DNA from: Lysobacter niastensis
GTDB taxonomy: Bacteria; Pseudomonadota; Gammaproteobacteria; Xanthomonadales; Xanthomonadaceae
Direction of reading: 5' to 3'
Assembly (NCBI RefSeq): GCF_015453285.1
Contig: NZ_JADLZT010000004.1
Span: 186,001 to 250,000, forward strand
Length of the DNA stretch: 64,000 bases
Part shown: positions 31,609 to 53,068 of the stretch, in pieces
Layout: each line of letters begins with the position of its first letter
Position numbering within the stretch: position 1 is the stretch's first letter
Made by a program: the position numbers and the translations under genes
The notes under the pieces: generated by a model
The model's database searches: none
The model's input: only the letters and a program-made list of their open reading frames with translations
Told to the model about the DNA's origin: nothing

Positions 31609-32799
31609 TCATCCGGCGCGCTCCAGCGCAAGTGCCACGCCCTGGCCGACACCGACGCACATCGAGATCAGCGCACGGCGGCCGCCGCCGTGTTCCATCG
31701 AACGCATCGCGGTCAATGCGAGCCGTGCGCCGCTGGCGCCGAGCGGATGGCCGAGTGCGATGGCGCCGCCATGTGCGTTGACGTGCGGCGCGTCGTCGTC
31801 GAGCCCGAGCGCGCGCGTCACCGCCAACACCTGCGCGGCGAAAGCTTCGTTGATCTCGATGACGTCGTAGTCGGAAAGGGCATGGCCGTGGCGGGCCAGC
31901 AGCTTCGCGATCGCCGGCACCGGGCCGATGCCCATCGTGCGCGGCGGCACTCCGGCCGAGGCGATGCCGGTGACGCGCGCGCGCGGCGTCAGGTTCCAGC
32001 GCTCGACCGCTTCGGCCGAAGCGAGCAGCAGCGCACATGCGCCATCGTTGATGCCGGAGGCATTTCCGGCGGTGATGCTGGTGCCGGCGCCGAGCAATGG
32101 CGTGAGCGCGGCGAGTTTTTCCAGGCTGGTATCGGCGCGCGGCTGTTCGTCGGCGATGACCTTGCCGACCGGCATCAGCTCTTCGTCGAACCAGCCAGAC
32201 GCGGTGGCCCGTGCGGCGCGCTGCTGCGAGCGAAGCGCGAACGCATCCTGGTCCTCGCGGCGGATGCCGTGCTCGTCGGCGAGGTGCTGCGCGGTCTGCG
32301 CCATCGAGTCGACGCCATGCATGGCCCCCATCGCCGGATTGACGAAGCGCCAGCCCAGCGTGGTGTCCTCGAGTTTCTGCTCGCGCCCGAACGCGGTGTC
32401 GGCCTTGCCCATCACGTAGGGCGCGCGCGACATGCTTTCGATGCCACCGGCGATGACCAGTTCGGCGTCGCCCAGCGCGATCGCGCGTGCGCCCAGGCCG
32501 ACCGCTTCCAGGCCGGACGCGCATAGGCGGTTGACGGTGATGCCGGGCACCGACACCGGCAGTCCGGCGAGCAGCGCGGCCATGCGAGCGACGTTGCGGT
32601 TGTCCTCGCCGGCCTGGTTGGCGCAGCCGAGCACGACCTCGTCGATGGCGGCGGGATCGAGGCCGGCGTGGCGCTGCAGCAGGTGGCGGATCGGCAACGC
32701 GGCCAGGTCGTCGGCGCGCACGCTGGACAGGCCGCCACGGAATCGCCCGAACGGCGTGCGCACGCCATCGCACAGGTAGACCGGACGCACCGACGTCAT
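31609..32799 (-). CDS. pcaF-like: Beta-ketoadipyl-CoA-type thiolase (acetyl-CoA acyltransferase)
   Basis: 396 residues, the usual thiolase length. C93 (NRLCASGLEAV) is the acyl-accepting nucleophile; H343 and H351 (NAHGGAIALGHPLGASG) and C381 (SMCVGVGQG) complete the active site. The opening VYLCDGVRTPFGRFRGGLSSVRADDLAALP is characteristic of PcaF/PaaJ enzymes, which split 3-oxoadipyl-CoA into succinyl-CoA and acetyl-CoA. The start ATG overlaps the stop of the IclR gene (ATGA), so both are coupled. Together with the CatI/CatJ-like transferase across the divergent promoter it can finish degradation of a beta-keto acid. Confidence 0.88.
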   Translation of the reverse strand: MTSVRPVYLCDGVRTPFGRFRGGLSSVRADDLAALPIRHLLQRHAGLDPAAIDEVVLGCANQAGEDNRNVARMAALLAGLPVSVPGITVNRLCASGLEAVGLGARAIALGDAELVIAGGIESMSRAPYVMGKADTAFGREQKLEDTTLGWRFVNPAMGAMHGVDSMAQTAQHLADEHGIRREDQDAFALRSQQRAARATASGWFDEELMPVGKVIADEQPRADTSLEKLAALTPLLGAGTSITAGNASGINDGACALLLASAEAVERWNLTPRARVTGIASAGVPPRTMGIGPVPAIAKLLARHGHALSDYDVIEINEAFAAQVLAVTRALGLDDDAPHVNAHGGAIALGHPLGASGARLALTAMRSMEHGGGRRALISMCVGVGQGVALALERAG

Positions 32800-33611
32800 G
32801 GTTTCGCAGCGGGCAGGCGGTTGGCCGGCACGCAGCACTCGATCGCCGCCGCCGTCTGCTGCAACTGCGGCAGGATCGTGTCGACGGCGTGGCGGGCGGC
32901 GTCCGGGTGGTAGGGCATGCTGACGTTGATCGCGGTGGCGATGCGGCCCTGCGCATTGCGCAGCGGCACGGCGATCGAGCACAGGCCCAGTTCGAGTTCC
33001 TGTTCGACGTAGGCGTAGCCCTGGCGCGACACGTCCTCGACGATGCGGCGCAGGGCGCGCAGGTCGGTGACCGTGTGCGGCGTGTGCCGCACCGGCTTGC
33101 ACTGCGTCAGCCAGCGGTCGAAATCGCCATCGTCCAGTCCCGACAGCAGCACGCGGCCCATCGCCGCGCAGAACGCCGGCAGCCGCGCACCCACGCCGAG
33201 CGTCACGCTCATGACGCGGCGGCCGGGCACGCGCAGCACGTAGACGATGGACTGGCCGTCCAGCACCGCCATCGAACTGCTCTGGTTGACGCGACGCGCC
33301 AGGTCCTCGAGCAGCGGCTGGGCGAGGTCGGTGAGGTTGAGCGAGCCGAGGTAGCCGAAGCCGAGTTCCAGCACGCGCGGCCCGAGCATGAACTCGCGGC
33401 CGATTTCGCGGACATAGCCCAGGTGCTGCAGCGTCAGCACCAGCCGGCGAGCGGCGGCGCGCGACAGGTCGGTGCGCGAGGCGATCTCGGCCAGGCTCAG
33501 GCGGATGTGCTCTCGGTCGAACGCGGCCAGCACCGCCAGCCCGCGCGACAGCGACTGCACATAGTCGCCGCTATCTTCGAATTGCCCCGAATCTCCCGCT
33601 TTCCTTGCCAT
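32796..33611 (-). CDS. IclR-family regulator, PcaR/PobR-like
   Basis: 271 residues from the ATG at 33611; the frame continues upstream but ARKAGDSG is the plausible N-terminus. The winged HTH (QSLSRGLAVLAAFDREHIRLSLAEIASRTDLSRAAARRLVLTLQHLGYV, given in outline; about 17-70) starts with the QSLxRGL form of PcaR/PobR/CatR-type IclR proteins. The effector domain follows (GYAYVEQELELGLCSIAVPLRN). These proteins govern aromatic and beta-ketoadipate catabolism, often as activators. It probably binds the two palindromic boxes at 33742-33775 and controls both divergent arms. Confidence 0.9.
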   Translation of the reverse strand: MARKAGDSGQFEDSGDYVQSLSRGLAVLAAFDREHIRLSLAEIASRTDLSRAAARRLVLTLQHLGYVREIGREFMLGPRVLELGFGYLGSLNLTDLAQPLLEDLARRVNQSSSMAVLDGQSIVYVLRVPGRRVMSVTLGVGARLPAFCAAMGRVLLSGLDDGDFDRWLTQCKPVRHTPHTVTDLRALRRIVEDVSRQGYAYVEQELELGLCSIAVPLRNAQGRIATAINVSMPYHPDAARHAVDTILPQLQQTAAAIECCVPANRLPAAKP

Positions 33612-33741
33612 GCCCGGCGTTTCCCCTGCCTGTTCATGTGTCCGTCCGGCCGCCGTTCGTGGTCCGGTCCGCACGCTTCGCCCTCCGCCGTTTTGGCGGT
33701 CGGGCACCGATTGACGGCGAGATTAGGGCTTCCGTAGAGTG

Positions 33742-51544: not shown

Positions 51545-51547
51545 GCC

Positions 51548-53068
51548 ATGGGCGCAAACAACACATTCGACGCCATCGTCGTCGGCGCCGGCCACAACGG
51601 CCTGGTCGCGGCGAACTACCTGGCGAAGGCCGGAAAGAAAGTGCTGGTGCTGGAGCGCCGCGCCGATGCCGGCGGGCAGCTGGCAGGTGCATCGTTCGAT
51701 GGCCAGGCGTATCCGCCGTTGCACGCGGGCGGACGCCTGCGTCCCGACATCGTGCGCGACCTGGACCTCGCACGTTTCGGTCTGTCAGACGCGGACAGCG
51801 TGGACGCGGTCTACACCTCAATGCTGCCGGATGGCCGCACGCTGTCGCTGTCGTCAAAGCCGAATGACGCGAAGACACTGGAGTCGATCCGCCAGTTCTC
51901 GGCGAAGGACGCTGGGGCGTGGCCGGAGTTCGCCGCCTTCATGGATCGCGCCGCGGCGTTCCTCGATGCGGCCTACCGCACGCCGATGCCGCGCCTGCCG
52001 AATATCGGACTCGCCGAAGGCTGGCCGCTGGCGAAGCTGGCGTGGACGCTGCGCCGCCTCGGCGGCCGCGACATGTTCCGGGTGATCCGCGCGATGTCGA
52101 TGTCGGCGGTTGAACTCACCGAGGAATGGTTCGAGTCCGAGGAACTGAAGGCGGCGATCGCCGCGGTCGCCATCCATGGCCACACGCTGGGTTCGATGTC
52201 GGCCGGCACCGGCTACACGCTGATGCACAACTGGCTCAACCGCGGCGGCGTGGCCCATCGCGCGCCCGCGGGCGGCAGCGTACGCATCGCCGAGGCGCTG
52301 GTGGCGGCGCTGAAGTCGCGTGGCGGCGAAGTGCGCACGGCTGCTGCCGTGGCGCAGATCGTGGTCGACCGTCAGCGAGCCACCGGTGTGCGCCTGGAGA
52401 GCGGCGAGGAAATCCTTGCAGGCATCGTGTTGTCCGCAGCGGATCCGCGCACGACGCTGCTCGGCCTGGTCGGCGCGCCGGAACTGCCACCGGAGTTCGT
52501 CTGGCACACGCGCTCGATCAAGATGCGTGGCTCGCAGGCCAAGGTGCACCTGCTGACCGACGGCAAGCACGGCATTCCCGCCGGCACGGTCGCGATCGCA
52601 CCGACGCTGAAGTACCTGGAGCGTGCCTTCGACGCCGCCAAGTACGGCGAGCTCGCCGAGCGGCCGTACCTCGAAGTGACCACGGCGGGCGACGTCGTCT
52701 CGATCCACGTCCAGTCGGCGCCGTACAAGCTGCGCCACGAAACCTGGGACACCGCCCGCGCGCGCGTCGAGCAACTGGCCGTCGACACGCTGGCCGAGCG
52801 CTTCCCGCAGCTGAAAGCGTCGGTGCGCTCGCTGCGTTCGATCACGCCGGTCGACCTCGAGCGCGACTACTCGCTGACCGAAGGCGATCCGAACCACGGC
52901 CAGCTGATCCTCGACCAGATGTTCTTCATGCGGCCGATGCCGGGCTGGTCGACCCATCTGACGCCAATCGATGGCCTGTACCTGTGCGGTGCCGGTGTGC
53001 ATGGCGGTGGCGGCATCAGCGGTGCGGCGGGACGGAATGCGGCGCAGGCGGTGCTGAAGGCGAAGTAG
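51548..53068 (+). CDS. PYROXD2-like FAD-dependent oxidoreductase (second copy)
   Basis: 506 residues, start ATG three bases after the first copy. FAD motif AIVVGAGHNGLVAANYLAKAGKKVLVLERR and ending HGQLILDQMFFMRPMPGWSTHLTPIDGLYLCGAGVHGGGGISGAAG (outline). The two copies share layout but differ clearly through the middle, so they arose from an old duplication and are probably either two subunits or two successive oxidases. Confidence 0.8.
   Translation: MGANNTFDAIVVGAGHNGLVAANYLAKAGKKVLVLERRADAGGQLAGASFDGQAYPPLHAGGRLRPDIVRDLDLARFGLSDADSVDAVYTSMLPDGRTLSLSSKPNDAKTLESIRQFSAKDAGAWPEFAAFMDRAAAFLDAAYRTPMPRLPNIGLAEGWPLAKLAWTLRRLGGRDMFRVIRAMSMSAVELTEEWFESEELKAAIAAVAIHGHTLGSMSAGTGYTLMHNWLNRGGVAHRAPAGGSVRIAEALVAALKSRGGEVRTAAAVAQIVVDRQRATGVRLESGEEILAGIVLSAADPRTTLLGLVGAPELPPEFVWHTRSIKMRGSQAKVHLLTDGKHGIPAGTVAIAPTLKYLERAFDAAKYGELAERPYLEVTTAGDVVSIHVQSAPYKLRHETWDTARARVEQLAVDTLAERFPQLKASVRSLRSITPVDLERDYSLTEGDPNHGQLILDQMFFMRPMPGWSTHLTPIDGLYLCGAGVHGGGGISGAAGRNAAQAVLKAK

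Follow-up and report, generated by a model that had tools for sequence, protein, structure and literature searches.

The 64,000-nucleotide window analysed here (positions 186,001 to 250,000 of contig NZ_JADLZT010000004.1; G+C content 67.9%) belongs to the genome of Lysobacter niastensis (G000; 4.03 Mb, 99.98% complete) and contains a run of five forward-strand genes that is the subject of this report. The run comprises a class III aminotransferase (AT1, 33810..35141), an aldehyde dehydrogenase (ALDH, 35178..36746) resembling 1-pyrroline-5-carboxylate (P5C) dehydrogenase, the CatI-like alpha subunit (36757..37605) and CatJ-like beta subunit (37602..38393) of a coenzyme A (CoA) transferase, and a second class III aminotransferase (AT2, about 38518..39849). 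AT1 (PF00202) is PRK06062-like, scoring 406.9 bits, below the family cut-off of 472, and its nearest solved structure is 6JIX, a taurine:2-oxoglutarate aminotransferase. AT2 scores 589.5 bits against PRK05769 (cut-off 552), which NCBIfam describes as the 'acetyl ornithine aminotransferase family', and is nearest to 7VNO. Both CoA-transferase subunits match PF01144 (66.1 bits for the alpha subunit, whose nearest solved structure is the glutaconate CoA-transferase 1POI), and the ESG motif is kept in the beta subunit when aligned with 1POI_B. By nearest structure and alignment the pair is therefore of the glutaconate CoA-transferase type, the type to which CatI and CatJ belong; that it is CatI/CatJ (hereafter CatIJ) is presumed, the name having been taken over from an earlier note on this DNA.

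Divergently from the run, on the reverse strand, lie a 3-oxoadipyl-CoA thiolase, PcaF (31609..32799; TIGR02430, 631.5 bits, cut-off 597), and an IclR regulator of the PcaR/PcaU/PobR subfamily (32796..33707, likely start 33611; TIGR02431, 298.1 bits, cut-off 284.75). A putative IclR operator at 33742..33777 combines the palindrome ATGTGCGCATAGCGCACAT (33759-33777) with a repeat of the half-site in front of it. Downstream of AT2, all on the forward strand, follow a TolB-propeller protein with a CehA/McbA-type metallohydrolase domain (39854..42385; NF038032, 224.3 bits, cut-off 80), probably exported to judge by eye from its signal-like start, a prolyl-oligopeptidase-type peptidase of family S9 (42385..44397; PF00326), an S58 aminopeptidase of the DmpA/BapA type (44397..45746; PF03576, 396.9 bits, cut-off 23.9), an amidohydrolase-type Xaa-Pro dipeptidase (45743..47122; NF051886, 526.6 bits, cut-off 500) and an APC permease (47193..48563). 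The nearest solved relatives of the S58 protein include 1B65 and BapA (3N2W). The permease lies nearest to the basic amino acid/polyamine exchangers (TIGR00905, 270.2 bits, below the cut-off of 409). Family-profile scans of the window proteins recovered every enzyme class that the earlier note had named from the letters alone, at or near the place it gave. A motif search found the catalytic motifs in the thiolase, AT1, AT2, the ALDH, S9 and S58. Near the N-terminus of the S58 frame, at about 44430-44570, odd sequence was seen by eye and suggests a start further in; the true start is probably downstream of the annotated one, with 44589 as one candidate.

Genomes of GTDB species were scanned with an alignment of CatJ and the best 80 of 583 confirmed stretches were kept; the window and three loci found before brought the total to 84. 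Those holding AT1, ALDH or AT2 above a set identity were called module loci (n = 35) and those holding none non-module loci (n = 49); the split being built on these three genes, only the counts of other genes are independent of it. The scanned stretches reach no further than about 10 kb from catJ, and many of the genomes are draft metagenome-assembled genomes (MAGs). All five genes were present in 23 of the 84 loci, and in each of these 23 they stood in the order AT1-ALDH-catI-catJ-AT2 on one strand, spanning 5.1-6.1 kb. The five-gene core is a real and widespread unit, beyond chance. Its carriers include genomes recorded as Dyella lutea, Arenimonas malthae, Sphingomonas cremea and Vogesella oryzae, as well as MAGs recorded as Udaeobacter and Holophagaceae.

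Moreover, six further genes were found in module loci and in none of the 49 non-module loci. The S58 gene occurred in 18/35 (p = 5e-9, a value that, like the others given here, treats the loci as independent and is too small because they are related to one another), the CehA gene also in 18/35, the permease in 15/35, S9 in 12/35, the amidohydrolase in 11/35 and a Rieske oxygenase in 9/35, two of these nine being the paralogue found in this genus. PcaF and IclR, in contrast, occurred in both groups (11/35 module against 29/49 non-module loci for PcaF, 16/35 against 24/49 for IclR). The logical chain seen by the earlier note is thus borne out in that the aminotransferases, ALDH and CoA-transferase are linked, together with hydrolases and permease; it is looser at the thiolase, with those 11 loci.

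Closer to the host, a CatJ match (E 1e-30) was found in 6 of 99 relatives, the genome itself included. Two genomes of the same genus (G006 and G010) carry the whole block in unchanged order, from a TonB-dependent receptor (window 26854..29406, reverse strand; PF00593/PF07715), likely to serve outer-membrane import, to the Rieske gene (54663..55772, reverse strand). G071, of another family in the same order, has the full five-gene core with pcaF, iclR, a TPR-sulfotransferase gene and an M20 peptidase gene (40%), and also CehA, S9, S58, the amidohydrolase and a Rieske gene (40%); a match to the receptor shows at its edge. G028 carries catI, catJ, pcaF and iclR (40%) but lacks the aminotransferases, and in G082 nothing closer than 39-42% relatives of the two CoA-transferase genes, catJ and catI, is present. 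When 369 genomes were drawn more widely from the class, CatJ (1e-40) was found in four besides this genome; at those four loci catI, catJ and pcaF are present, and AT1 and AT2 absent.

A tree of the 84 CatJ proteins placed 33 of the 35 module rows in one supported group, which also holds a single non-module row, L074 (on a 7 kb contig). The remaining two, L050 and L065, both from MAGs recorded as Oxalobacteraceae, fall in another group. The module label needs three changes on this tree, of which at least two are forced by supported branches, as would be expected if AT1 had become linked to CatIJ on two occasions, although losses are also possible. L065 (6888-20747) would represent a second build of the chain, using the same kinds of reaction with different enzymes. 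Here AT1-catI-catJ is accompanied by a PuuC-like ALDH (below the family cut-off) in place of the core ALDH and by a PRK07480-type class III aminotransferase (above the cut-off) in place of AT2, with an SBP_bac_3 ABC transporter and M81, M20-like and S9-like hydrolases.

The relation to aromatic degradation was examined through the intradiol dioxygenases (PF00775), the only ring-cleavage family searched for genome-wide. No match was found in this genome, the earlier note having remarked on a chain free of ring-cleavage genes, and only 5 of 34 module genomes had one (G010, G071 and those of L045, L056 and L058). PF00775 was present in 18/20 control CatJ genomes against those 5/34 (Fisher p 5e-8), the controls being larger on average, which favours the finding of any gene in them. 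For this survey and that of KamA (below), 50 of the 79 loci L028-L107 except L032 were taken, 30 module and 20 of the 49 non-module loci; the 20 controls were picked before the results, so that near-identical loci of Pseudomonas and Xanthomonas would not be numerous and the majority of very short contigs would be passed over. Since intradiol genes are scarce in module genomes, CatIJ and PcaF here probably do not form the end of an aromatic pathway. Among known systems the lower beta-ketoadipate pathway is one of the closest: PcaF and IclR exceed their family cut-offs, the operator is of the same type, and CatIJ homologues share the locus with a PcaF match in those 29 non-module loci. The differences are that the chain here would be fed by aminotransferases and an ALDH rather than by ring cleavage, and that CatIJ falls far below the PcaI and PcaJ cut-offs (TIGR02429, 19.1 bits against 128.5; TIGR02428, 35.2 bits against 243.55). 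One of the two control genomes without PF00775 is that of L075, where a protein with a PnpCD hydroquinone dioxygenase N-terminal domain (6583-7587) forms a set with an ALDH, catI and catJ, likely a different route to 3-oxoadipate.

A site within three mismatches of GTKCGATWATCGMAC lies between iclR and AT1 in 13 of 16 module loci, six of them exact. The pattern was composed after the module sequences were known; it gave 52 strand-counted matches in the 326,529 bases of those 16 loci, half of them at the iclR-AT1 sites. Such a site was also found within 260 bases of the iclR 5' end in 17 of the 24 non-module loci with an iclR match, so this operator type is common to the aromatic version of the pathway. 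The pattern matches the PcaU motif TTTGTTCGATWATCGMACAMA published in PMC8222616 and the PcaR operator GTTCGATAATCGCAC of PMC12455658, where pca genes are described as induced by beta-ketoadipate via PcaR, with succinate acting too. The site in the window is a putative, degenerate operator of this PcaU/PcaR type, its upstream half-site having been placed by eye.

The nearest solved relatives of the ALDH are P5C dehydrogenases, and aligned with three of them (3QAN, 3RJL and 1UZB) it keeps the GQKCSA motif and the TGA of the substrate anchor loop, which contain the catalytic Cys-Ser and the anchor-loop Gly-Ala residues of these enzymes. However, its anchor loop is three residues longer than in all three structures. 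GATTGAWP was found in 27/27 module ALDHs longer than 420 residues (of 29 in all), and the longer form NRPQGATTGAWPGYQPFGG in 15 of these 27. The cut-offs of the P5C dehydrogenase families are not reached (PRK03137, 393.9 against 648 bits; TIGR01237, 379.9 against 659.65). Such a loop would suit a pocket for a relative of glutamate semialdehyde.

These features suggest an island of catabolic genes acting on a basic C6 diamino acid, with beta-lysine (3,6-diaminohexanoate) or beta-lysyl peptides as the likeliest substrate; we give this reading an even chance. Every reaction, the regulator's ligand and the substrate are here inferred from the observed gene content, order and linkage, the scarcity of intradiol genes and the operator-like sites. 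The PcaF thiolase, the IclR regulator and the operator make 3-oxoadipate the best reading of the end product. Undoing the steps from 3-oxoadipate would lead through 3-aminoadipate (AT1) and its semialdehyde (ALDH) to beta-lysine (AT2), seemingly the only simple diamino precursor. In the forward direction S58, S9, the CehA-type hydrolase and the Xaa-Pro dipeptidase, probably exported, would release the substrate and the permease would import it. AT2, acting as an omega-aminotransferase, would replace the 6-amino group of beta-lysine by an aldehyde, giving 3-amino-6-oxohexanoate. Ring closure of this compound would yield 1-pyrroline-5-acetate, a homologue of P5C longer by one carbon, and would account for an enzyme like P5C dehydrogenase. 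The ALDH would oxidise 3-amino-6-oxohexanoate/1-pyrroline-5-acetate to 3-aminoadipate, AT1 would turn this into 3-oxoadipate, CatIJ would load CoA onto it and PcaF would split 3-oxoadipyl-CoA into succinyl-CoA and acetyl-CoA, with the IclR regulator answering a beta-ketoadipate-type signal. A permease of basic-amino-acid type, an AT2 of the acetylornithine family and an S58 protein of the DmpA/BapA family all fit beta-lysine. The DmpA/BapA aminopeptidases are the closest known enzymes to the S58 protein, which differs from them in being tied to a catabolic gene set. Lysine was considered as a source of 2-oxoadipate and rejected, 2-oxoadipate not being a 3-oxo acid and so offering no thiolysis. 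Thus of the compounds named earlier, beta-lysine is favoured by the 3-oxoadipate end, whereas lysine and methyl-lysine, which would give 2-oxoadipate that the thiolase could not cleave, are argued against, as is proline betaine.

Several observations weigh against this assignment. The ALDH, AT1, the permease and CatIJ all fall below the NCBIfam cut-offs of their nearest families. Twelve of the 35 module loci lack one or more of the five core genes, some where the contig or stretch ends; L040, L051, L056 and L065 lack a core orthologue inside stretches of about 20 kb, and L015 lacks AT1 solely because G006 was taken in two stretches. PcaF is within reach in only 11/35. No operator site within three mismatches was found in L050, L054 or L065, and that of this genome is a diverged palindrome, three mismatches off the pattern. 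In addition, the Pseudomonas putida PcaR is reported in PMC12455658 to respond both to beta-ketoadipate and to succinate, and the ligand therefore cannot be read from the type of regulator. As to the source of beta-lysine, EpmB is not the only radical SAM protein of the KamA family in the genome, a second being present (L109 1387-2580; G000:C1:247264-248457), with Asp residues aligned with Asp293 and Asp330 of lysine 2,3-aminomutase 2A5H. In lysine 2,3-aminomutase these two residues have a role in lysine binding. This second KamA is absent from the other 98 relatives at 1e-60, and KamA is not linked to the module (2/30 module against 4/20 control genomes at 1e-45; Fisher p 0.2). As KamA does not follow the module, beta-lysine would need an outside source. 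Finally, L038 (727-5298) carries an amidohydrolase, a GntR/UTRA regulator, urocanase and formylglutamase upstream of AT1, a set resembling histidine degradation, and, from Pfam matches, a 2-oxoacid dehydrogenase E1 pair downstream; genes similar to this histidine-degradation set, by similarity only, occur in L039 and L051. A histamine-dehydrogenase-like Oxidored_FMN gene lies in L031, L034, L036, L040 and L063. These proteins are 61-78% identical to the L063 copy in very different host bacteria, and the nearest solved structures of that copy are histamine dehydrogenases, ahead of trimethylamine dehydrogenase. Together the two gene sets may point to another substrate, in place of beta-lysine or beside it. 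For the Oxidored_FMN protein a role as N-demethylase, like StcD/DgcA, was also considered and dropped, its closest solved relatives being histamine dehydrogenases.

Among other explanations, an unlikely one keeps the end product but takes a related compound as substrate (pyrrolidine-2-acetate, 3-aminoadipate, or a beta-lysine carrying N-methyl or amide groups), the Rieske or histamine-dehydrogenase-like enzymes serving as optional first steps. It would account for the restriction of the Rieske gene to module loci and for the Oxidored_FMN gene in the five loci named above; however, a cyclic or single-amine compound needs no second aminotransferase, and neither oxidising enzyme is seen in most module loci, whose stretches end no more than about 10 kb from catJ. 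The acetylated beta-lysine route of the Pseudomonas B4 type appears improbable. There AT1 would act at C3 of 6-N-acetyl-beta-lysine, CatIJ and the thiolase would cleave 3-oxo-6-acetamidohexanoate, and a hydrolase, AT2 and the ALDH would take 4-acetamidobutyrate via 4-aminobutyrate (GABA) and succinate semialdehyde to succinate. The same enzyme classes are needed, hydrolases adjoin, and transamination, CoA transfer and thiolysis of a 3-oxo acid are common to both; yet no acetylation step is seen here, with no N-acetyltransferase family among the window genes in 31609-58250, the part of the genome searched, and PcaF and IclR indicate 3-oxoadipate, so that the end product is read as 3-oxoadipyl-CoA. 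The ALDH, moreover, scores higher on P5C dehydrogenase than on succinate semialdehyde dehydrogenase (394 against 261 bits), and AT2 higher on PRK05769 than on GABA aminotransferase (589.5 against 361 bits).

Two further readings are harder still to credit. An omega-amino acid or diamine route (6-aminohexanoate, hexamethylenediamine or nylon oligomers) to adipate, in which CatIJ would transfer CoA to adipate, would also employ two aminotransferases, an ALDH and an S58 hydrolase, the wider S58 family including NylC. We regard it as very improbable, given that the ALDH is of the amino-acid semialdehyde type and that no acyl-CoA dehydrogenase or hydratase family was found among the window genes in 31609-58250 or in that part of the neighbours which was annotated. 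It is just as hard to believe that two ordinary pathways lie side by side, one from ornithine to glutamate (AT2 and the ALDH) and the other the lower beta-ketoadipate pathway for aromatics. AT2 and the ALDH do resemble acetylornithine-family aminotransferases and P5C dehydrogenases, as in the pairing of ornithine aminotransferase with P5C dehydrogenase, but the genes are interleaved in the same order in 23/23 loci, the ALDH has an anchor-loop insert, both enzymes are coupled to AT1 and CatIJ, and intradiol dioxygenases are scarce in module genomes.

Returning to the beta-lysine island, we tentatively extend the reading, as a possibility short of an even one, to a dedicated route in several bacterial phyla for eating beta-lysine from beta-lysyl peptides or beta-lysine-bearing natural products, a non-aromatic entrance to the beta-ketoadipate pathway served by a regulator and a CatIJ lineage of its own. 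The literature searched contained no account of this kind of route, most subscription journals lying outside its reach. If true, genes for 3-oxoadipate would not always be a sign of aromatic degradation, and such annotation would be wrong in these genomes. Aerobic use of beta-lysine would gain a genetic basis, beta-aminopeptidases would be tied to a real nutrient, and the module would supply new omega- and beta-aminotransferases and a P5C dehydrogenase-like enzyme with a changed pocket.

The block delimited earlier, 31609-53068, was too narrow on the left and too wide on the right. To the left, a TPR-sulfotransferase protein (29457..31499, reverse strand; PF13469) adjoins the TonB-dependent receptor, and both (26854-31499) travel with the module in near relatives. 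The receptor is 82-83% identical in G006 and G010, with a short partial match in L019 and partial matches at the edge of L028, L029, L031, L034 and L035; the TPR-sulfotransferase gene keeps its position in all six of these L loci. To the right lie a GcvT-like folate protein (48618..49814; PF01571) and two CrtO-like FAD proteins (CrtO1, 49961-51544; CrtO2, 51548-53068), all on the forward strand and, by family scans and distribution, neighbours rather than core. Repeat-like palindromic sequence was seen by eye between GcvT and CrtO1, at 49815-49960.

In G006, G010 and G049 the genes for GcvT, CrtO1 and CrtO2 stay together. The three were considered as part of the pathway, in which the earlier note had placed an N-demethylation step, and rejected on their distribution: G071 has the module with no GcvT match at E 1e-30, while G049 and G036 have a GcvT orthologue and no CatJ match at that threshold. 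Outside the genus, among the best 80 of 583 stretches, only L046 (CrtO2-like, 60%) and L047 (a distant CrtO1 relative, 25%) had anything similar. Judged by the refuting condition of the earlier note, hydrolase and CoA-transferase genes are linked elsewhere and the five-gene core moves as a set, whereas the flavoproteins, L046 apart, are unlinked to them outside the genus, and the demethylation step falls away. The Rieske gene of the window, carnitine/glycine-betaine monooxygenase-like, was likewise rejected as the module's own: it is a paralogue of the module Rieske of other genomes, 41% identical to that of L028, with a 60% relative at G000:C9:315680. In G049 a Rieske gene directly adjoins GcvT-CrtO1-CrtO2, and a separate unit made up of Rieske, GcvT and CrtO genes may therefore exist.

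A second CoA-transferase pair was seen in this genome (L006 8680-11097, on G000:C4), adjoining a protein that scores 406.8 bits against the family of the D-cycloserine synthetase DcsG, where the cut-off is 360. The recorded names of L046 (Klebsiella pneumoniae, 67% G+C) and L063 (Kuenenia, 66% G+C) fit poorly, and both are probably mislabelled or mixed MAG bins. Upstream of AT1 in L033 (2572-5947) lie two open frames of 556 and 589 codons with no Pfam match at 1e-5, and relatives of the second frame occur in L030, L039 and L056.

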